From a virus, in the IMG/VR virus record IMGVR_UViG_3300044641_000049, positions 1-21,233 of that record: a stretch of 21,233 nucleotides of DNA. One strand, 5' to 3'. Positions 1,180-13,956 of the stretch are shown in pieces. Position 1 is the first letter of the stretch. Each line of letters opens with the position of its first letter. Below the pieces are notes generated by a model. It saw nothing but the letters and a program-made list of their open reading frames with translations. It was not told where the DNA came from and did not search any database. A program made the position numbers and the translations under genes.

Positions 1180-1548
1180 TCAAGCAGTTTCTTGTGTTTT
1201 CCACGAAGTCGTAGCTTCATCCCATGAATACATCTGGCCGTCGTTGGGCGCATCCACAGGCGCTTTCCACTGGCAGGTTTCTTCAATCAACACCCAGCTT
1301 GCAAACGGCTTGGGCGGGATGAACGCATCACGTTGCTCGTCAAATATGTAACCCTGACCGGCGTAGTTCTTGCGCTTGTTCCCGTTGTAGCTGGTCTGTA
1401 CCCAGCGGCCACCCAAGAGACGCTCGCAGAAAGCAGCGCCGATATGTTCTTTCTCAATGCCGCTTGCATCAGAGGTGTCGCGATTGTCAACGACGATGAC
1501 GCGCAGAACCTCATTGTTTGGGCCAAGTTCACAGAAGTGAGCCATCAT
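1180..1548 (-). CDS. conserved phage protein of unknown function
   Basis: The protein has 122 residues and starts MMAHFCELGPNN. It shares a pattern I know from many marine and freshwater phages: an MAHFxELxxNNxVLRVIVV beginning, a central GAAFCERLLGGRW segment, a KNYAGxGY segment, and a Trp-rich end (CQWKAP, MYSWDE, TSWK). No function is established for the family as far as I know; it often lies near tail genes. Two consecutive ATG codons (1548 and 1545) are possible. The second has better spacing from the GGAG sequence and gives the usual MAHF start. The stop of the oxygenase gene overlaps the start (ATGATG). Confidence 0.7.
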   Translation of the reverse strand: MMAHFCELGPNNEVLRVIVVDNRDTSDASGIEKEHIGAAFCERLLGGRWVQTSYNGNKRKNYAGQGYIFDEQRDAFIPPKPFASWVLIEETCQWKAPVDAPNDGQMYSWDEATTSWKTQETA

Positions 1549-2153
1549 TCTTCTCCTAATTGCAGTCCAGTTAAGCTCTCATCGACACCGATGTGTCCCT
1601 TGAGAAAGGTATTAAATGCGATGCTGACACGGGTTTCGTCGCCCACCTTCGTTTGCACCATGTGCTCAAGATGAGATGGGAACAGAATCAAATCACCTGC
1701 GCCAACTTCATACCACCAGCTTTCAGAGTTCCAGTGGTTCCATGTCTCTGGCTGTAGCTTGATACGCTCGTAGCCGCTTTTGTAAAAGTAAATCTTGTCT
1801 ACCAGCCTGTCAGCCTGCGGGTAAAACACACCGCTGATAAAGCTGTTCGGGTGCGCGTGCTTGTGGTGATACTGTCCCGGCTCTGTGTAGTTCGACCACG
1901 ACTGCGTGATGTACAGGGATACGTCACCTTTAGGATCATGCACCGTCTTAAAGTATTCCAACATCGCGTCTTCGATAAAGTCGCGGATGTCTGTCAATTC
2001 TTTGCCAACCAGTATTTTGCGGTCGGCGCTGGTGGTGTTGCCTTCGTTAGCGTAGCGCTCTTGGCCGAGGATAAAGTCCAGCTCTGTCTTGGTCAGATCA
2101 CGACCGAGTCGGGCGAACCCGATAGGCAGGGGAAAAAGGTTCTGGATATTCAT
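1545..2153 (-). CDS. putative 2OG-Fe(II) oxygenase
   Basis: The protein has 202 residues. Residues 97-103 (HKHAHPN), followed by SFISGVFYP, and residues 154-165 (DLILFPSHLEHM), followed by TRVSIAFN, match a double-stranded beta-helix 2OG-Fe(II) oxygenase of the type common in cyanophages and other environmental phages. Candidate metal ligands are H99 or H101 and H164, with R175 as the candidate 2-oxoglutarate contact. The substrate is unknown. Such enzymes hydroxylate proteins, nucleic acids or small molecules. It overlaps both neighbours by 4 nt (ATGA) and so is expressed with late tail and lysis genes, which leans slightly towards a virion or host-envelope target. Confidence 0.75.
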   Translation of the reverse strand: MNIQNLFPLPIGFARLGRDLTKTELDFILGQERYANEGNTTSADRKILVGKELTDIRDFIEDAMLEYFKTVHDPKGDVSLYITQSWSNYTEPGQYHHKHAHPNSFISGVFYPQADRLVDKIYFYKSGYERIKLQPETWNHWNSESWWYEVGAGDLILFPSHLEHMVQTKVGDETRVSIAFNTFLKGHIGVDESLTGLQLGEE

Positions 2154-2407
2154 CCGTTCACCGCCTTGTCGTACTCGCGCTGCTGACCTGTGATCTGGGC
2201 AACCTGCTCGTCAGTCCAGATGGTGTTGATGCTGTCTTCGAAAGCTTTAATCTTTTCCATGGTGTCATGCACTTCTTCCATCGTTGGGCAAGAACGTGGG
2301 TCATCCCATACGCTGAAGAAGTTGTTGGTGATCTCCCAACGAGCGCCCGGACGTAGCAAGTGCATCGCTGTATCAATCCCTACCATCATGTAGATTTTGC
2401 TGTCCAT
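2150..2407 (-). CDS. small conserved phage protein, unknown function
   Basis: The protein has 85 residues and starts MDSKIYMMVGIDTAMHLLRPGA. It contains a conserved-looking WDDPRSCPTMEEV segment (about 34-46) followed by a predicted amphipathic helix (MEKIKAFEDSINTIW). There is no signal peptide or membrane segment. It sits directly downstream of the two glycine-rich adhesin genes and overlaps the oxygenase gene by ATGA. Position immediately behind receptor-binding genes is typical of tail-fibre assembly factors, but I have no motif to support that role. Confidence 0.6.
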   Translation of the reverse strand: MDSKIYMMVGIDTAMHLLRPGARWEITNNFFSVWDDPRSCPTMEEVHDTMEKIKAFEDSINTIWTDEQVAQITGQQREYDKAVNG

Positions 2408-2415
2408 AAGTCCTT

Positions 2416-4050
2416 TTATGTGTTTAGTTTTAGGATAACAACACCTGAAGCACCAGCACCACCAGTACCTGACGGATCGCCGCCGCCACCACCGCCACCA
2501 CTGCCTGTGTTTACCACACCAGCACTTGCGGTTGCGCTTCCGTTGGTTCCATTTCCTCCGATGCTAGAACCGCCAATTCCTGCTGCACCGCCTGAAAAAG
2601 AGCCACCACCGCCGCCGCCAGCATACGTGGCTGACACTCCACTCATTGAGGAAGTACTGCCAGCGCCGCCGTTGCCACCTGCTGTTGAAGTTCCACCACC
2701 GCCACTAGCAGACGCTCCGCCGCCTCCGCCAGCGCCAAAATTAGGCCCTGAACCAAAGTTGTCGCCGCCATTATTTCCTTGGGATGGAGACGTTAACGGT
2801 GTATTTCCTGCGCCACCCGGAGATAGAGCAGCCCCTATAATTCCTCCGCCACCGCCAGAACCACCAGATGCAGATAGTGGGCTATTATTCCTGCCGCCAC
2901 CTCTGCCACCACCATTAGATGTAAGTCCGCCAAAAATAGAATTGCTGCCAGAAGTTTGGGCAGCGCCACCTGCTCCAACGGTAATCGTATATTGAGCGCC
3001 ACTTGATACTGGCAGACCAGCGCCAGTTCTAAAACCGCCAGCACCACCGCCACCACCACCATTTCCACCACCACCGCCACCTGCTACTACTAGGTAGTCC
3101 ACGCTTGTCACACCGGGTGGAGCAGTCCATGTGCCAGAAGCTTGGAATGTCACTGCGCCTGTCTGTGGGGCTAGGTATCTAATAATGACAATGCCGCTGC
3201 CGCCGCTATAGCCGCCTAAAGTTCCACTTCCACCACCGCCGCCTCCACCAAGATTGGTAGAGCCATTAGAGCCAGCAGACGTTCCTGCTCCATTACCGCC
3301 ACCGCCTGTTCCGCCTAAACCACGATTGTTGGCATTAAAGTCTGCCCCACCACCGCCGCCAGCATAAGTAATACTAGAACCAGCAATAGTAGATATTGTT
3401 CCATTCCCACCGTTGCCAGCAAGACTTGAGACGGCAGCAACTCCTACTGCCCCACTTCCTCCGCCACCGCCGCCTAAAAAAAGACTGGGAGCAGTTGCAA
3501 AACCAGCGCCACCATTATTTCCCTGCGATGGAGAAATTGATGGCGTATTTCCATTACCGCCAGCAAAAGTACCAGAACCGCCACCACCAGAACCACCTGG
3601 TATGCCAACGCTGTTTCCACCACCGCCGCCGCCGCCATTAGATGTAATCGCGCTAAATATAGAGTTGCCGCCGTTTGAGCCAACCCCAGCAGTTCCTGTG
3701 GTTGTATTTCCAGCGCCACCTGCTCCAACAGTAATTTGATATGTTGTGCCGGGCACCACAGGAAAACCTGTGCCAGTTATAAGCCCGCCTGCCCCTCCGC
3801 CGCCACCGTAACGAGAACCACCACCGCCGCCACCTGCCACCACTAGGTAGTTCACCTGCGACACACCGTCAGGGCATGTCCATGTGCCGGAGCTTGTGAA
3901 TGACAGCACCACCGTGTTGGTGGGTATGCCCGGCCACACGCCTGCTTTTATAGCCTGTAATGCCTGCTGTAGCGTCCAGATGCCAGATGCCTGCGTCGTG
4001 CTCGGTATGACCGGCGCACGCGTCATTATTCTGCCGGGATAATCACTCAT
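2416..4050 (-). CDS. glycine-rich tail adhesin, copy B (two modules)
   Basis: The protein has 544 residues. An N-terminal anchor (1-46, YPGRI and ASGIWTL) is followed by two glycine-rich modules (about 47-293 and 294-544). Each module opens with a beta segment of the SGTWTxPxGV/DYLVVAGGGGGG type, contains one invariant GNTPxxSPSQGNNGG peptide (codons at 3508-3552 and 2764-2808), and closes with SGIVI- or SGVVI-type strands. The pattern agrees with glycine-rich phage domains such as the polyglycine-II sandwich of Salmonella phage S16 gp38, a receptor-binding adhesin. It is a paralogue of the gene immediately upstream. A role in host binding at the tail tip is inferred. AAGG precedes the ATG. 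Confidence 0.75.
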   Translation of the reverse strand: MSDYPGRIMTRAPVIPSTTQASGIWTLQQALQAIKAGVWPGIPTNTVVLSFTSSGTWTCPDGVSQVNYLVVAGGGGGGSRYGGGGGAGGLITGTGFPVVPGTTYQITVGAGGAGNTTTGTAGVGSNGGNSIFSAITSNGGGGGGGNSVGIPGGSGGGGSGTFAGGNGNTPSISPSQGNNGGAGFATAPSLFLGGGGGGSGAVGVAAVSSLAGNGGNGTISTIAGSSITYAGGGGGADFNANNRGLGGTGGGGNGAGTSAGSNGSTNLGGGGGGGSGTLGGYSGGSGIVIIRYLAPQTGAVTFQASGTWTAPPGVTSVDYLVVAGGGGGGNGGGGGGAGGFRTGAGLPVSSGAQYTITVGAGGAAQTSGSNSIFGGLTSNGGGRGGGRNNSPLSASGGSGGGGGIIGAALSPGGAGNTPLTSPSQGNNGGDNFGSGPNFGAGGGGGASASGGGGTSTAGGNGGAGSTSSMSGVSATYAGGGGGGSFSGGAAGIGGSSIGGNGTNGSATASAGVVNTGSGGGGGGGDPSGTGGAGASGVVILKLNT

Positions 4051-4058
4051 GTCTTACC

Positions 4059-5750
4059 TTATTGATTGCACTTGATGATGACAATACCAGAGCCGCCAGA
4101 GCCGCCGTTTGCTTGAGTAGGCACTGAAAATCCGCCACCACCCCCACCGCCGCCAGTATTTGCAACTCCGTTTGAGCCCAAAGAAGATGTTGCCACTCCG
4201 TCGCCACCCTTGCCTCCACCACCATTTCCGCCATTTCCACCTAAATTTCCATTTGGATTGGTTGATTGACCGCCACCGCCGCCACCTCCAGCATAGGTGA
4301 AAGATGAGCCTGTAATTGACGAGGCCGTGCCAGCGCCGCCAGCAGTAGAAGCGCCAGCGCCACCTCCTGCGGCATTTGCCGCCGCAGCCGAAGCGCCGCC
4401 TCCGCCAGCAGCAACACCCCAAGATGCGCCTCGACTAGCATTACCACCGTTGTTGCCTTGCGATGGACTAAAATTAGGCGTGTTGCCAGCGCCACCTGTT
4501 CCGGCACTAGGATCGTTGTTTGATGCTCCTCCTCCAGAGCCACCAGCACTACCGTTATTTGCTGCATTTGGGGCAGAAGTATAAGATCCACCTCCCCCGC
4601 CAGCCGTTGATGTAATTGTGCTAAAAATTGAATCCGCGCCGTTTGATCCTCTAACTCCAGCACTACTTCCAGCACCACCAGCACCAACTGTAATGGTGTA
4701 TTGTGTTCCAGCAGTTATAGCTAATGCGGTTCCAGTCCTAAATCCACCAGCGCCACCACCGCCGCCAGTTGCACCACCACCGCCACCACCAGCCACAACC
4801 AGATAGTCCACGCTGGTCACGCCGACAGGAGCAACCCAGTTGGCAGTAGAGTTGAACACAAAGATAGACTGATTAGGTGCTGTGTAGCGTAGGATGACAA
4901 TACCAGAGCCGCCGGGACTTGCTGGAATTAACGTCGGGCTAACCGAAGTTCCTCCTGCCCCGCCACCGCCGCCGCCAGTGTTTGCTGTTCCGGGCCAACC
5001 ACCACCTTGACCAGGTTGATAACCTCCGTTACCACCCCCGCCTGTACCACCAGGACCGCCCGGCTGACCGCCATCATCTCTTCCGCCGCCACCACCGCCA
5101 GCGTAAATTACAGATGACCCAGAAATAGATGATGCTGTACCGTTACCACCACCACCAGGACTTGCGCCAGCATTTTTTCCAGCCTCGCCTGCTCCGCCGC
5201 CACCACCACCTTTGGATGTAACTGATCCATTGCCGCCATTATTTCCTTGCGATGGGGATGTAGCAGGAGTATTTCCAATCGATCCAGAACTAGCCCCTGC
5301 TGTTCCAGCTCCGCCACCACCACCAGAAGCTCCATTACTTCCAGCGCTAGAACCAGAGCCAAAACCACCACCGTTTGATGTGATTAGTGAGAATACTGAG
5401 TTACCACCAAGAGCAGATGCGGCTCCACCGCTTCCAACGGTAATTGCGTAAGTTGCGCCTGGGGTTACATTAAAAGCAGTACCAGTCCTAAATCCACCAG
5501 CGCCACCACCGCCGCATCCAAGACTTCCTCCGTTTATATTCGATCCACCACCGCCACCACCAGCAACCACAAGGTAATCAACAGCCGTCACACCCGCAGG
5601 CGCAGTCCACGTACCTGACGCTAGGAACGTCTGGATAATAGTTACCCCTCTAGGCCACGAGCCAAGATTCCAAATGCCGGACGCAAAGCCGGGCGTGTAC
5701 AGCGGCGAAGTCGCGCTGATAATGTTGCCGGGATACCCGTGAATCGCCAT
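4059..5750 (-). CDS. glycine-rich tail adhesin, copy A (two modules)
   Basis: The protein has 563 residues. An N-terminal anchor (1-40, GYPGNI and ASGIWNLGSW) precedes two glycine-rich modules (about 41-291 and 292-563). The modules are headed by SGTWTAPAGV and NWVAPVGV and each contains a VDYLVVAGGGGGG stretch. The invariant GNTPxxSPSQGNNGG peptide is encoded at 5232-5276 and 4443-4487. Between the conserved glycine blocks lie variable linkers, as expected for hypervariable loops of polyglycine adhesins. AAGGAG lies close before the ATG. It differs from copy B mainly in the loops and the anchor, consistent with duplication followed by divergence for receptor recognition. No catalytic motif is seen. 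Confidence 0.75.
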   Translation of the reverse strand: MAIHGYPGNIISATSPLYTPGFASGIWNLGSWPRGVTIIQTFLASGTWTAPAGVTAVDYLVVAGGGGGGSNINGGSLGCGGGGAGGFRTGTAFNVTPGATYAITVGSGGAASALGGNSVFSLITSNGGGFGSGSSAGSNGASGGGGGAGTAGASSGSIGNTPATSPSQGNNGGNGSVTSKGGGGGGAGEAGKNAGASPGGGGNGTASSISGSSVIYAGGGGGGRDDGGQPGGPGGTGGGGNGGYQPGQGGGWPGTANTGGGGGGAGGTSVSPTLIPASPGGSGIVILRYTAPNQSIFVFNSTANWVAPVGVTSVDYLVVAGGGGGGATGGGGGAGGFRTGTALAITAGTQYTITVGAGGAGSSAGVRGSNGADSIFSTITSTAGGGGGSYTSAPNAANNGSAGGSGGGASNNDPSAGTGGAGNTPNFSPSQGNNGGNASRGASWGVAAGGGGASAAAANAAGGGAGASTAGGAGTASSITGSSFTYAGGGGGGGQSTNPNGNLGGNGGNGGGGKGGDGVATSSLGSNGVANTGGGGGGGGFSVPTQANGGSGGSGIVIIKCNQ

Positions 5751-5759
5751 CGCCGCTCC

Positions 5760-6161
5760 TTACGAGCTGATCTGTTCGTAGCTTACCGAGAAGGATATTG
5801 CGTTGTTCGTGCCGCTGGCAACGATGACAGCCTTATCCTCCAGCAGATAAGTGGCCGTCGTCTTGTCCATCACAATCAGCGACGCAAACGCAGGAACAGA
5901 AATGTTTGATGCAATCGGGAACGCGTTAGCCGATGTCACCACCACAGCGTTACCCGCCACGACGCCGCCGCTGGTGTAAATCATCACCGTGCAGTTGGCC
6001 GCCGTGTTGGTCTGGTTCGCAGCCACAATCTGATCCAGCTTGAAAACGTTGCCAGAGTTGACCGCGTTGGTAACGAGTACAAAGTTAGACGTGTTTGCAG
6101 GCGTCAGATATGTGGTCTGACCGTAGATCTGCGTGACGTTAACAATATTAGGGTTTGCCAT
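5760..6161 (-). CDS. beta-rich virion protein, probably tail-associated
   Basis: The protein has 133 residues and starts MANPNIVNVTQIYGQTT. It consists of alternating Val, Thr, Asn and Ala strands without charged clusters, membrane segments or Cys pairs (one Cys). The MANPNIVNVTxI opening recurs in small structural proteins of environmental podoviruses and siphoviruses. It lies between a fibre-like gene and the glycine-rich adhesins, so a tail-tip or fibre-connecting role is likely. AAGGAG is found 8 nt before the ATG. The molecular function is not known. Confidence 0.6.
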   Translation of the reverse strand: MANPNIVNVTQIYGQTTYLTPANTSNFVLVTNAVNSGNVFKLDQIVAANQTNTAANCTVMIYTSGGVVAGNAVVVTSANAFPIASNISVPAFASLIVMDKTTATYLLEDKAVIVASGTNNAISFSVSYEQISS

Positions 6162-6173
6162 TTTAATAACTCC

Positions 6174-6842
6174 TTAAAATCCGAAGATCATAGCCATAGC
6201 GATGGCTTTGCCCGTGGTGATGCCAGACGCAGCAGGAGTCTGGCTGACCCAGTGCGTTCCGTTACTTGTTAGCACATTGTTTGCCGTACCAGGCGCAACC
6301 AGCGTCACCGTGCCGGTGTTGTTGCCAACCACCACACTGCCCAGTGTCAGGTTTGCCCTGCCCGTGCCGCCGCTAGAAACAGTCAGCGGGTTGGTAATCG
6401 TGACGTTGGAAGCAGCAAACTCTGTGACGTAGGTAACAGTTTCGGTAATACTGGTGCCGTTATTGAATACCGACATCGACCGGCCTGCTGGCACAGTCAC
6501 CGTCGTGCCCGTCGGTGCTGCGTTCGACCCGTTGGAAATCACCACCGGATTCGACAGGTTGTTCGTTACCAGATACTGCTTGGTAATCGCAGGCACAAAC
6601 AAGGTCTGCGTCCCAGCAGTCGTGCCGCCTAGAATCAACCGCAGGTTACGAGCAGTCTGCGTCGCATTCGTATCTATCAGTGCAATCGCAGCGTTCGAGC
6701 TAACAAACGTTACCGTCGCGTTGCCGGTAATCGCTTCTTCCAGAGCCGTGCCCAAGTTGACGTTCGTGGTTGCACCCCACGTACCCGCCTGGTCGCCAGT
6801 GCCGATCAGCTCGATCTTTAGCTGGGAATATGTACTTGCCAT
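6174..6842 (-). CDS. tail fibre-like protein
   Basis: The protein has 222 residues. The first 40 (ASTYSQLKIELIGTGDQAG, then TWGATTNVNLGTALEEAI) form a widespread N-terminal tail-appendage sequence of podovirus and siphovirus fibres. The middle is beta-rich. Residues about 156-202 (SSGGTGRANLTLGSVVVGNN, then NNVLTSNGTHW) resemble the shaft or trimerisation repeats of phage fibres. The end (GKAIAMAMIFGF) is also characteristic. At 222 residues it is short for a fibre and lacks a large receptor-binding C-terminus. It probably acts as a base or adaptor onto which the separate glycine-rich adhesins are placed. Confidence 0.7.
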   Translation of the reverse strand: MASTYSQLKIELIGTGDQAGTWGATTNVNLGTALEEAITGNATVTFVSSNAAIALIDTNATQTARNLRLILGGTTAGTQTLFVPAITKQYLVTNNLSNPVVISNGSNAAPTGTTVTVPAGRSMSVFNNGTSITETVTYVTEFAASNVTITNPLTVSSGGTGRANLTLGSVVVGNNTGTVTLVAPGTANNVLTSNGTHWVSQTPAASGITTGKAIAMAMIFGF

Positions 6843-8600: not shown

Positions 8601-9026
8601 TCAATTAATACGTATCAGCGCACTCGACGCCGTGTCAGGTGGCAACACTACAGAAAACGTGCCGTTGCCAGCCTGCGTCTTGTCACTACCAAAATCCAAA
8701 GTGGCTACCGACGCATTTGCTCGAGTGAAGTTGTATATCAACGCCCCTCTAGTTACAAACTGTGCCGGGTTCCACACCACATTATCAAAGCTCACATACA
8801 CAATACCGTTACTGGTCGAGTTGACGGTAACGTTTGCCAACGTCTGACCACCAGCCACGTACCCAGCACCAGTAATCTCGTTGGTCGGAGTGTATTCATT
8901 TGTGTTCTGATCTAGCTCTACATACCCGTCGTACAAAGCCATCTTCAAAGTGTCCGACGCAATGTTCTGGCGGCCATTCAGAATGTCCACCTTGAACTTA
9001 GTAGTCAGACCTTGGTAAATCGTCAT
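8601..9026 (-). CDS. beta-rich tail protein
   Basis: The protein has 141 residues and starts MTIYQGLTTKFKVDILNG. It contains TLKMALYDG (about 26-34), a TNEITGAGYVAGG turn, a WNPAQFVTRGALIYN strand pair (about 86-100) and ATLDFG near the end. This order is common among small phage virion proteins that follow the head-tail adaptor. Its ATG overlaps the stop of the adaptor-like gene (ATGA at 9023-9026), so the two are probably made in linked amounts. A tail or neck function is inferred from neighbours. Confidence 0.6.
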   Translation of the reverse strand: MTIYQGLTTKFKVDILNGRQNIASDTLKMALYDGYVELDQNTNEYTPTNEITGAGYVAGGQTLANVTVNSTSNGIVYVSFDNVVWNPAQFVTRGALIYNFTRANASVATLDFGSDKTQAGNGTFSVVLPPDTASSALIRIN

Positions 9027-9706
9027 GTAACCCTCACCCTAACCTGACCACTACGGTATGCGTCCTGACGCTCCATACCATCGCCCAGACGTTTCAGTTG
9101 ACCCATAGCCTCGTTGTACTTGGCCTCGACGTTGGCAATCAAATCCTGCTCACCCTTCATGTACAAGTACGCCTCGCGCAAGCTGCCATATAGCAGTATC
9201 GGATCGTAGTTGTCACCCAGCCATGTGCGTCCGTCTGGCGCAGTCGTGATTGACTCTGGGTAATAGTAGTAGTGCAGCTCTACCGTGTATGCAGCATCCG
9301 GCGTCGGACCCAAGATAAACGTCAGCTCGTCTGTCACCACATTGCTGGTGGTCGACGGACCAAAGATTGCGTAGTACTGCGGCAATCCTGTATCCGCTGG
9401 CGTAGGGTAAGCAGCCCGAATGTAGTTCACATCCTTGTTCAGCAGGTAGTAATACTCCTCGGTCGCAGTGCCGTAGTTCTCAACCACAGCCAACGAGTAC
9501 ACCGCTAGGAAATCACTTGGCGCAGACAGGTACTTGTTGTTGGTCGACAGAATGCCGGTCTTGTTTGCACGCAGCGCAGGAACCTGCACCGTGTTGTAGA
9601 CACGAGTCTCCGTCTGACGGATAAACGTCGGAATGTAGGAGATAAACTCCTGTTCGTAGTTTTCCGTGTACGACTGAATAGCCGCGACCAACTCCGTGTA
9701 CGTCAT
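9023..9706 (-). CDS. head-tail adaptor-like protein
   Basis: The protein has 227 residues. The N-terminus (MTYTELVAAIQSYTENYEQE) and the IPTFIRQTETRVYNTVQVPALR segment (about 25-46) are helical, followed by a Tyr-rich beta region (EEYYYLL, ELHYYYYPE). A C-terminal helix ends in REAYLYMKGEQDL and a basic tail. This fits the adaptor family exemplified by phage SU10-type podoviruses, which dock below the portal. Coupling by ATGA to genes on both sides and position after the other adaptor candidate agree. The call rests on pattern recall. Confidence 0.65.
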   Translation of the reverse strand: MTYTELVAAIQSYTENYEQEFISYIPTFIRQTETRVYNTVQVPALRANKTGILSTNNKYLSAPSDFLAVYSLAVVENYGTATEEYYYLLNKDVNYIRAAYPTPADTGLPQYYAIFGPSTTSNVVTDELTFILGPTPDAAYTVELHYYYYPESITTAPDGRTWLGDNYDPILLYGSLREAYLYMKGEQDLIANVEAKYNEAMGQLKRLGDGMERQDAYRSGQVRVRVT

Positions 9707-11551: not shown

Positions 11552-11887
11552 CTAGTCTCTGTACCCGCCGCCAGCGGCTTTGTACTTCTTAGCCACCAAC
11601 TGCGCTTTACGGGCTGACCACTGGCCTGCACGGGTGCCATGCGTTGCTGCGGCCTTTACCTGAGACACAATCTTCTTACGCAGCCCGGGCTTGGTGTAGT
11701 TGCCAGCAGCGTTGACCTTTGACCGCTTGGCAGCGCCACGCACAGCATCCTCCACCGACGGCTTACCTAACCGCACGGAACCGCCCTTGGCATATTCCGT
11801 AAAGTCAGTATTGTCCCGACGAGGTTTTACCCTCGCTTTTGGCATCTTGCTGGGGTTGATATCCCCCATGCCGCGAGATGGTCTCAT
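11552..11887 (-). CDS. basic small protein, DUF5872-like
   Basis: The protein has 111 residues. After a basic N-terminus with YAKGGSVRLG (32-41), the C-terminal part has NYTKPGLRKKI (63-73) and the hallmark AGQWSARKAQLVAKKYKAAG, ending GGYRD (87-111). I associate this with the DUF5872-type family of phage proteins; the number is from recall. It starts with an ATG overlapping the preceding stop by one base (TGATG), the typical linkage in this cassette. No function is known. High positive charge suggests contact with nucleic acid or acidic virion surfaces. Confidence 0.65.
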   Translation of the reverse strand: MRPSRGMGDINPSKMPKARVKPRRDNTDFTEYAKGGSVRLGKPSVEDAVRGAAKRSKVNAAGNYTKPGLRKKIVSQVKAAATHGTRAGQWSARKAQLVAKKYKAAGGGYRD

Positions 11888-12273
11888 CAGACCATCCTAC
11901 CTTTTGTCTTACCTTTTTGGGCAATACCGTCAGCACGAGAAGAAGCGGACTTTACTGCGCCACCCTTCTTCATTATGGATTTCAATCCTGATTTAACTTT
12001 TTGAAGGCCGGAAACGTTTCCAAGAGATGCGTTTTGCATTCCGGGCACAAACTGCTTGAGCGCTGCCTGTGAACCAGCACCAAGACCGCCAAGAGATTGG
12101 CCCAGCCTAGTAGGGGCGGCTATCTGTTGTGTGGGTTGTGGAGAAACTTGCATCGCACGGTTCGGTAGAGTTTTTGCCTGTGTTGGCCTAAATCCTCTGC
12201 CGCCCTTGGTAGCGGCTCCGCCAAATAAGCCCAACGAAGAACCACCTAAAGCCATTTTCTTAACCTTCTTCAT
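11887..12273 (-). CDS. Lys/Gly small protein with RADG C-terminal tag (1)
   Basis: The protein has 128 residues and starts MKKVKKMALGG, followed by a low-complexity Gly/Gln/Pro middle (about 11-80), a short helix (SGLQKVKSGLKSIMKKGG) and the tag SASSRADGIAQKGKTKGRMV (109-128). N- and C-termini resemble those of the three genes upstream while the middle does not. There is no enzyme motif, and the protein is probably disordered and basic. GGAG lies 6 nt before the ATG. The stop overlaps the next start by one base. Function is unknown; an internal head protein or DNA-associated protein is conceivable. Confidence 0.65.
   Translation of the reverse strand: MKKVKKMALGGSSLGLFGGAATKGGRGFRPTQAKTLPNRAMQVSPQPTQQIAAPTRLGQSLGGLGAGSQAALKQFVPGMQNASLGNVSGLQKVKSGLKSIMKKGGAVKSASSRADGIAQKGKTKGRMV
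11890..11949 (-). repeat. C-terminal RADG/GKT tag, copy 4
   Basis: This encodes SASSRADGIAQKGKTKGRMV, the last 20 residues of the 128-aa protein, preceded by KKGGAVK. At protein level it is nearly identical to copy 1 although the two genes share nothing else but their short N-terminal motif. Confidence 0.85.
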
Positions 12274-12287
12274 ATCACGCTCCGTAA

Positions 12288-12899
12288 TTAACAGTAGCCG
12301 CCTTTTTTCATGCCCTTGTTGCCAGCCATCTTAACCATGGTGCCCTTGGTTTTGCCGCGCGATGCGACGCCATCTTTGCTAGGAGCAGCAGTTTTAACTG
12401 AACCCATCTTGGATGCAGCCATACCACCCATCGCCATCTTCTTGACCTTGCCGCCGTACTTCATGCCAGCCTCGGCCATCTCGTGCTTGACCATTGACTT
12501 AGGAGCGCCCTTCTTTTTCATGAACGACACTTCCTTCTTGACCATTGCTTTTGACTCTTTCATTTCGCCTCCTTTGGCTTTCTTGGAAAGGCCAGCTTCG
12601 GAAAGACCGATGGCGATGGCCTGCTTGGGGTTGGTTACTTTCTGACCTGACGATGACTTTAACTTGCCAGACTTGAACTCTTTCATCACAGTTTTAACCT
12701 TGGCTTGTCCGCCCTTGGCAAAGCGCTGCGTCATCTGATCGTTCGGGCCAGACATAGCTTGCGGCTGCATGTTGAACGTCTGATTCATCCCACCGCTCTG
12801 ACCGCCAGCCTGCGGTTGGTTGCCATAGAACGGATAGGTGGGCTGCTGCACTTGGCCGCCAGTAACACCACCATCAGCAAACTTCCGACGCTTTCTCAT
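12288..12899 (-). CDS. Lys/Gly protein with DUF6496-like domain and tag (2)
   Basis: The protein has 203 residues. It starts MRKRRKFADGG, has a Gln/Pro/Met-rich linker (17-60), and then KVKTVMKEFKSGKLKSSSGQ with NPKQAIAIGLSEAG (67-103), which matches the DUF6496 pattern. Next comes a Lys-rich part with MKKKGAPKSMVKHEMAEAG (127-145), a diverged tag (PSKDGVASRGKTKGTMV, 173-189), and a 14-residue extension ending MKKGGYC. Repeated GG motifs occur at 10-11, 63-64, 110-111, 149-150 and 158-159. The DUF6496-type segment is frequent in phages without known role. It overlaps the upstream gene by 4 nt. Confidence 0.7.
   Translation of the reverse strand: MRKRRKFADGGVTGGQVQQPTYPFYGNQPQAGGQSGGMNQTFNMQPQAMSGPNDQMTQRFAKGGQAKVKTVMKEFKSGKLKSSSGQKVTNPKQAIAIGLSEAGLSKKAKGGEMKESKAMVKKEVSFMKKKGAPKSMVKHEMAEAGMKYGGKVKKMAMGGMAASKMGSVKTAAPSKDGVASRGKTKGTMVKMAGNKGMKKGGYC
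12333..12383 (-). repeat. C-terminal tag, diverged copy 3
   Basis: This encodes PSKDGVASRGKTKGTMV in the 203-aa protein, 14 residues before its end. The RADG core has become SKDG, while the RGKTKG part is kept. It is the only copy not at the extreme C-terminus. Confidence 0.6.
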
Positions 12900-13279
12900 A
12901 CCATTTTCCCTCTGGTTTTACCGCGTTGAGCGCAGCCATCGGCGCGGGCAGAAGCAGAACTAACTTTGCCGCCAGATTTCATGCCTTTTGATTTCTCATA
13001 CGCCTCATACTCTTCTTTTACCCGTCGGTCTTTCCTAGCGTTCTCGATCTCAAGCTCCATGCCAGACTTTTGAGGCTTTTCTTGTTCAGTTCTCTTCTTC
13101 GCGTCGCTTATTCTTTTCGCCGCATAAATTGGAAGGCTACTTATTCCCGCAAGTGCTAGACCACTTCCAGCAACATCTAAGGCTTTATCCATCTTAGATT
13201 GGTCGGCGATGTCGCTACCTCTTGCGCGGGTGTACTCATCCATCGGCTGCATACCGCGAACTGGATCTCTTTTAGGCAT
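12896..13279 (-). CDS. small protein with hydrophobic segment and RADG tag (3)
   Basis: The protein has 127 residues. A polar N-terminus with PMDEYTRARGSD leads to a hydrophobic stretch at about 34-53 (LDVAGSGLALAGISSLPIYA). This is long enough for one membrane pass or an amphipathic helix. A charged helix follows (about 58-98), and the C-terminus is KSGGKVSSASARADGCAQ then RGKTRGKMV (101-127). It is the only tagged member with a membrane-like segment. Start and stop overlap neighbours by one (TGATG) and four (ATGA) bases. Function is unknown. Confidence 0.65.
   Translation of the reverse strand: MPKRDPVRGMQPMDEYTRARGSDIADQSKMDKALDVAGSGLALAGISSLPIYAAKRISDAKKRTEQEKPQKSGMELEIENARKDRRVKEEYEAYEKSKGMKSGGKVSSASARADGCAQRGKTRGKMV
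12899..12961 (-). repeat. C-terminal RADG/GKT tag, copy 2
   Basis: This encodes SSASARADGCAQ then RGKTRGKMV, the last 21 residues of the 127-aa protein, preceded by KSGGKV. Differences from copy 1 are few: an inserted S, a small swap, Cys for Ile and the final residues. Confidence 0.85.
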
Positions 13280-13956
13280 CAGCAGATCCTCCCACGAGTC
13301 TTGCCGCGCTGGGCAATACCATCAGCACGAGATGATGCGGAAACTTTGCCACCTTTTTTAAACCCTGAAGCGCCGGTGCCAGTTTTTGTTGTGTATTCCA
13401 AATCTTCTCTAACTGGAAATCTAGATGCGCCACTGCCAGTTGCTCTAGTTGCTTCGGAGTTAGCAGCTTTTGCATAGCCTCTGGCCATTCTTCTGGCCAT
13501 TTCATTTTGCACTTGAAGCTTTGACTTCTTGGGTTTAGGTTTTACTTTTCGCTCTTCCTTTGCTTCTTCGGCCACAGGGGATGTATACCCACCCGCACCA
13601 TCCATGCGTCGGATATTTGATCCCGGCGATGCTGTACGCAAACGCTCTGTCAAATCAACAGTTTCAGAAACTTCTTTTGATTTTGGCAGTTCTTTTGTAT
13701 CGCTAAGTGTAGTAGCACCACGACCGCTGTAATCACTACCCATTTCTGGCACAGGCTTTGTGCTTTCTTCAATCATTTTGCCGCGACCAGCGCCATATTT
13801 GTAATAGGCTTCCGAACCGGGCGAATCGATATTGCCCATACGCAGCCGTTCAAAAAATCCAACCTTGTCGCCTTTAGAGGCTGCTAACCCCTCGCGCTTA
13901 TAGTCTGCCTCTGTTTTGCCGCCTTCTTCGTAACGCTTAACCTTGCGTTTCTTCAT
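13279..13956 (-). CDS. Lys/Gly protein with RADG tag (4)
   Basis: The protein has 225 residues. It begins MKKRKVKRYEEGGKTEADYK and has a long, polar, probably disordered middle with charged stretches. A basic region is present (KVKPKPKKSK, 137-146) and a short helical segment (VQNEMARRMARGYAKAANSE). The tag KKGGKVSASSRADGIAQ then RGKTRGRIC occupies 200-225. It is the longest member of the set and first in transcription order. GGAGGG lies just before the ATG, which overlaps the upstream stop (ATGA). No named domain is recognised. Confidence 0.65.
   Translation of the reverse strand: MKKRKVKRYEEGGKTEADYKREGLAASKGDKVGFFERLRMGNIDSPGSEAYYKYGAGRGKMIEESTKPVPEMGSDYSGRGATTLSDTKELPKSKEVSETVDLTERLRTASPGSNIRRMDGAGGYTSPVAEEAKEERKVKPKPKKSKLQVQNEMARRMARGYAKAANSEATRATGSGASRFPVREDLEYTTKTGTGASGFKKGGKVSASSRADGIAQRGKTRGRIC
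13282..13341 (-). repeat. C-terminal RADG/GKT tag, copy 1
   Basis: This encodes SASSRADGIAQRGKTRGRIC, the last 20 residues of the 225-aa protein, preceded by KKGGKV. It is the reference copy for comparison with the three downstream genes. Confidence 0.85.

Follow-up and report, generated by a model that had tools for sequence, protein, structure and literature searches.

What do two glycine-rich proteins encoded side by side in a virus do, and by what route do their repeated modules come to differ between relatives? The window analysed here is the whole of the 21,233-base viral record IMGVR_UViG_3300044641_000049. In the list of its open reading frames (ORFs), adhesin A (P0002, 4059–5750, 563 amino acids) and adhesin B (P0001, 2416–4050, 544 amino acids) are adjacent paralogues on the same minus strand with 8 bases between them, and the parts of both proteins located below lie on that strand. 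We consider it likely that A and B are a pair of tail adhesins, with heads that related phages exchange at fixed anchors. The two would then bind receptors from the tail of a podovirus-like aquatic phage, in which a short conserved N-terminal anchor docks each protein and two tandem heads are displayed, each head being a putative TNF-like β-sandwich that projects a glycine-rich lattice with variable loops. The anchors would stay constant because virion fit is required. Related phages would trade heads, the simplest route being homologous recombination in the conserved DNA of the anchor, the linker and the 3' end, and a backbone lineage would thus get new heads with its docking ends unchanged.

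Both proteins begin with a YPG...ASGIW anchor (residues 1–37 of A, 5640–5750; residues 1–46 of B, 3913–4050) followed by two modules: A-N (residues 39–289, 4884–5636) and A-C (residues 296–563, 4062–4865), B-N (residues 48–292, 3175–3909) and B-C (residues 300–544, 2419–3153). All four modules match Gly_rich_2 (PF21722) above the Pfam curated cut-off (77–108 bits compared to 24.3, E 4e-33 to 1e-23), at 4884–5612, 4068–4850, 3175–3888 and 2428–3132, respectively. The two matches give a protein E-value of 3.2e-45 for A and 7.8e-51 for B, and Gly_rich_2 is the sole Pfam entry for either protein at E up to 0.1. ORFs and PF21722 matches thus agree with a sequence-only reading of this region, which had described two adjacent paralogues with two glycine-rich modules and a short anchor each. 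The peptide GNTPxxSPSQGNNGG, which it had assigned once to every module, is present in exactly one copy in each of the four: GNTPATSPSQGNNGG in A-N (5232–5276), GNTPNFSPSQGNNGG in A-C (4443–4487), GNTPSISPSQGNNGG in B-N (3508–3552) and GNTPLTSPSQGNNGG in B-C (2764–2808). The pairwise amino acid identity between modules is 55–63%, and 35–44% persists when the columns with glycine in both are dropped, which argues for genuine paralogy of the four over glycine runs arisen by chance. The PF21722 matches, the paralogy and confident AlphaFold2 models (mean predicted local distance difference test score, pLDDT, 88.2 for A and 87.6 for B) rule out chance low complexity as the source of the modules. 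A and B are a real and well-built pair of adhesins from a known domain family, with a module number that is ordinary for it; their function we infer from fold, place and variability.

The evidence for exchange comes from close relatives among 117 loci fetched with B and with the upstream tail gene at 6174–6842. Between the window and loci L008 and L022, the flanking genes are 86–99% identical at the nucleotide level, with the exception of tail gene 6174–6842 (79–80%), and the anchors 98–99%, whereas all four modules are 62–68% identical. Across close relatives the anchors keep 98–100% identity, but each of the four module interiors has been replaced, down to its silent sites. Glycine codons shared in the modules of the window and L008 or L022 have a third-base identity of 0.29–0.47, compared to 0.33 expected for unrelated glycine codons at the codon usage of the window; at four-fold sites in the anchors and flanks of the same genomes the identity is 0.63–1.00. 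Codons identical in all of four close genomes (the window, L008, L022 and L023) make up 36/37 of the A anchor, 45/46 of the B anchor and 34/40 of a conserved island spanning the end of A-N, the linker and the start of A-C (residues 281–320, 4791–4910). They make up 12/42 of the B linker with the start of B-C and 8/12 and 4/11 of the ends of A and B, as against 11/195, 8/194, 7/187 and 8/196 in the module interiors. The borders of replacement are hence the anchors, the A linker and the gene ends. In the conserved peptide 0–2 of 15 codons per copy are kept, which rules it out as the recombination site.

The same pattern holds more widely. Of 210 locus pairs measured, seven have flanks at least 90% identical. 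Together these seven comprise 28 module slots, of which 26 score below 0.9; the pairs overlap in membership and so are not independent, and L024/L028 have diverged in the anchors too. The two kept slots are both in gene B of L020/L021 (0.94 and 0.96), where gene A is replaced (0.63); the two genes thus change independently. In an alignment of 66 proteins, the 175 columns with a glycine majority have a mean entropy of 0.47 bits compared to 1.66 bits in the other 369, a gap that is partly built in, as the classes were picked by glycine content. A stronger point is that invariant blocks alternate with stretches lacking any majority residue. Loops that vary between conserved glycine blocks, as had been proposed, are thus supported, and the two are not equally conserved.

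Could the heads instead have been inherited vertically, their loops diversifying in place by point mutation and indels under selection and without any exchange of cassettes? The nearest neighbours of the modules are slot-faithful and the framework amino acids are well conserved, as fast evolution in place would have it. However, the silent glycine positions of the interiors are close to random expectation while the anchors and flanks of the same genomes are not, the boundary is sharp at the anchor and at the A linker, and L020/L021 have kept one gene and not its neighbour. In addition, a comparison of the window with the near-identical contig L040 over 14,230 bases shows 11 changes, none of them in the adhesins. 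We therefore find evolution in place unlikely. What the analysis adds is that the unit of exchange can be narrowed down to the interior of a module, with the anchor ahead of it fixed, and that natural head-swap pairs exist.

For 89 of 106 A and B modules the nearest neighbour is in the same slot. Among 134 modules, no match that reaches 92% over 70 nucleotides or more links different slots; the five such matches are all same-slot, four from the two orthologous pairs L020/L021 and L023/L024 and one an 86-nucleotide stretch at the start of B-C. Within the window, the longest exact stretch shared by two modules is 14–19 nucleotides in five module pairs and 34 in one. Recent exchange between slots, or among the four modules of one genome, thus has no case among the 134 modules. 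Recombination had been suggested as a means of module exchange. It best explains head replacement between relatives, but neither the suggested use of the conserved peptide as its site nor intragenomic exchange among the four modules is supported. Exchange looks slot-faithful and would run through homologous sequence beyond the module interiors, not by shuffling within a genome. A diversity-generating retroelement is adenine-directed and the silent change at glycine positions does not resemble its action, though no search aimed at a template/variable repeat and reverse transcriptase was made.

Several observations weigh against head exchange between phages. Apart from L020/L021, L023/L024 and the 86-nucleotide stretch, modules have no DNA in common that reaches 92% over 70 nucleotides or more, and no donor is identified, so recombination as the route is deduced from the contrast between modules and surroundings and not from matched donors. 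Modules keep their slot identity, which sets limits to free exchange. Poor alignment of glycine tracts can lower silent-site identity; yet local BLAST finds no close interior DNA. A separate BLAST comparison, of the whole of B with phage records, is blinded by the low-complexity filter.

The models suggest what would be exchanged. Module B-N superimposes on the Pam3 fibre (7ypx) with Z 16.6 and 2.1 Å over 175 residues, and A-C with Z 16.4 (VIA-align). The Bxb1 tail-tip chain 9d93_Qb gives Z 16.0 and 16.4 against B-N and A-C, and the ALK/LTK domains Z 6.6–9.3, with unrelated rows beginning at about 3.3. Fold matches were computed for these two modules, and A-N and B-C are linked to them through the Pfam match. 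The modules are thus predicted to fold like the TNF-like and glycine-rich head of Pam3 gp24 and the Bxb1 tail-tip protein, and more distantly like the ALK/LTK TG domain. A profile search of solved structures also leads to Pam3 (E 4e-4), while a sequence search with A alone gives weak, mostly unrelated matches, and Foldseek finds 255 matches in a viral structure library at E up to 0.001, the best of them named glycine-rich domain proteins. Polyglycine-II packing is likely, given these fold matches and the published descriptions of glycine strands in S16 gp38 and ALK/LTK: passages of PMC6851490 place polyglycine-II helices of gp38 on a β-helix, and glycine runs of ALK/LTK are cited as polyproline-II helices in the relevant part of PMC13243192. 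For the glycine motifs of Pam3 gp24, the corresponding section of PMC9608196 reports angles near those of β-sheet. The anchors are not predicted to form a helical bundle, at low confidence (pLDDT mostly below 50); one 9-residue helix is seen in B.

The sequence-only reading had set A and B beside S16 gp38-type adhesins, which have one module on a separate fibre. Could gp38 be the parent type, with a polyglycine sandwich on a β-helix capping a long tail fibre as in S16 and T2? Matches to phrog_863 ‘tail fiber assembly’ (3.4e-15 and 2e-12) speak for this, as do glycine-rich motifs with hypervariable segments, but the adhesins match phrog_2295 far more strongly. Pfam holds a gp38 family, which neither A nor B matches at E up to 0.1, where Gly_rich_2 stands alone. 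The closest solved folds are Pam3 gp24 and Bxb1, and the short anchors lack a predicted helical bundle, albeit at low confidence. S16 gp38 (6F45) is not among 33 Foldseek matches, an absence that excludes nothing. Altogether, we hold a gp38-type origin to be highly improbable, and the fold points to a Pam3 gp24-like head instead.

A module hidden Markov model built from the four window modules counts 87 distinct complete module proteins in the 117 loci, the window's own two included: 17 with one module, 67 with two and 3 with three. Of the 67, 27 have an A-type anchor (IHGYPG), 26 a B-type anchor (QQALQAIKAGVWP) and 14 another (FAYTKIMQAL). A third set, fetched by module profile and overlapping the first two in a few contigs, holds 54, 34, 5 and 2 viral proteins with one, two, three and four modules. 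These counts imply that the fused module pair is common, and the tandem A–B arrangement recurs across many contigs. The paired double-module architecture is neither unique nor S16 gp38-like, and passages of the related literature that match its terms describe no such system. The exact GNTPxxSPSQGNNGG motif occurs in 54 of 160 modules of the fetched loci and is not universal.

Are A and B determinants of host range, or do they merely build or decorate the tail and adhere to mucus, particles or glycans in the surroundings? PF21722-like modules also occur in cellular contigs and one control archaeal genome, which speaks for decoration, as does the lack of a known receptor. A scan of cellular genomes gave 27 relatives, none of which indicates a host. 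Against decoration, A and B sit among tail genes, and replacement within the lineage is confined to the heads, a pattern that the relevant passages of PMC3909814 report for host-recognition genes of marine phage islands. A decoration role thus appears quite improbable to us. By analogy with Pam3 gp24 and S16 gp38, the loops of the proposed adhesins would bind receptors, presumably at the tail tip; whether four modules might mean four receptor specificities was a suggestion of the sequence-only reading.

A and B lie between tail genes and an endolysin. Upstream runs a series of tail genes, from an adaptor-like gene (9023–9706) through several genes of unknown function to the tail gene at 6174–6842 (phrog_31104, function not annotated), which served as synteny anchor, and a small conserved protein directly ahead of A (5760–6161), the last two on the minus strand. 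With the next tail gene also in view, a relative of this small protein accompanies all 55 proteins that have a YPG anchor and none of the 16 that have a FAYTK anchor; 3 of 3 with neither anchor have it too. These are counts of proteins, not genomes. Since its presence tracks anchor type, it may be a docking partner of YPG anchors. Tail gene 6174–6842 has conserved ends and a middle stretch whose length varies among close relatives. Downstream of B follow a small conserved protein (phrog_21526, 2150–2407, minus strand, in the same order in relatives), a 2-oxoglutarate-Fe(II) (2OG-Fe(II)) oxygenase (PF13759, phrog_81, 1545–2153, minus strand), gene 1180–1548, two small genes and the endolysin. 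Considered as a candidate Tfa-like chaperone, 1180–1548 has no convincing PDB relative by sequence and no Pfam match. Eight of the 11 L040 differences cluster at 665–1085, within the two genes ahead of the endolysin. The portal of the window is 27–45% identical to portals of Pelagibacter, Roseobacter, Planktothrix/Synechococcus and other phages. At 11887–13956, four consecutive small ORFs resemble one another in their basic C-termini (SRADGIAQKGKTKGRMV-like), which might be a common tag for proteins inside the virion.

Among loci with at least 1.5 kilobases downstream, 30 of 30 with two modules have the oxygenase behind the adhesins, compared to 2 of 9 with a single module and 0 of 2 with three. 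In the module-profile set it is found near 19 of 26 viral proteins that have at least two modules, 10 of 34 single-module ones and 0 of 13 proteins in cellular contigs. Shared ancestry can explain part of this association. Table 1 of PMC3909814 names both Fe(II)-dependent oxygenases and gp38-like adhesins among the genes of hypervariable marine phage islands. The pattern GNTPxx.PSQG does not serve as a mark of oxygenase phages: it is present in 96 of 120 modules from oxygenase loci, 8 of 22 from oxygenase-free loci and 11 of 18 of unknown state, so that it occurs without the enzyme, and lineage confounds the comparison. The oxygenase is possibly a modifying enzyme of the heads. We give a slim chance to a four-slot cassette in which the anchor would be a fixed socket, heads would be traded slot by slot and the oxygenase would hydroxylate the glycine-rich heads, for example at Asn or Pro of the NTPxxSPSQG turn; receptor-binding loops would then sit on an enzymatically finished polyglycine body.

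Glycine-rich heads are abundant in aquatic phages yet nearly uncharacterised there. The locus offers natural head-swap pairs on closely related backbones (the window, L008, L022 and L023/L024; L020/L021), so that the relation of head sequence to host becomes a direct question as soon as hosts are known, and it connects a phage 2OG-Fe(II) oxygenase that had no explanation with adhesins that have two heads.

Among known systems, Pam3 gp24 (PDB 7ypx, 7yfw) shares the TNF-like sandwich and glycine-rich head. Passages of PMC9608196 describe it as a helical shaft with TNF-like and glycine-rich domains, and with diversity increasing toward a hypervariable distal tip, the proposed receptor site, and this variable tip is a further likeness to the A and B heads. 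Pam3 gp24 differs in having one head, an α-helical trimerisation shaft and a dedicated chaperone, whereas A and B are two genes with two tandem heads and a short anchor each. The tail-tip chains Qa/Qb of mycobacteriophage Bxb1 (PDB 9d93) have the same head fold, but each listed chain has one head (229–230 residues) and the phage is unrelated. In the extracellular TG domain of ALK/LTK the TNF-like and glycine-rich parts are arranged as in the modules; these are animal receptor kinases that bind cytokines, and the likeness is distant, with Z close to the level of common arrangements. Gp38 of Salmonella phage S16 (PDB 6F45) likewise has glycine-rich motifs split by hypervariable segments, in the sections of PMC6851490 concerned, but it is a single module on a β-helix that caps a separate gp37 fibre. 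Among uncharacterised proteins, Foldseek aligns 615 columns with A0A222YVH7 of Synechococcus phage Bellamy (UniProt ‘Glycine-rich domain-containing’, 635 amino acids). Pelagibacter phage HTVC023P (L120), with a related portal, also has tandem glycine-rich module genes, gp59–gp62, annotated as hypothetical; they are four genes, each with one module behind a longer N-terminus. Phage DSL-LC04 (L118, OR003939.1) encodes at the A position the unannotated, uncharacterised WJZ48128.1 (561 amino acids), which has two modules like A and B and adjoins a 2OG oxygenase. It differs in having a single two-module gene, and its B-like anchor, to which residues 4–40 of B are 59.5% identical, is the N-terminus of a protein with six LamG stretches. 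As a B-like anchor there carries LamG lectin repeats, anchors and heads are separable.

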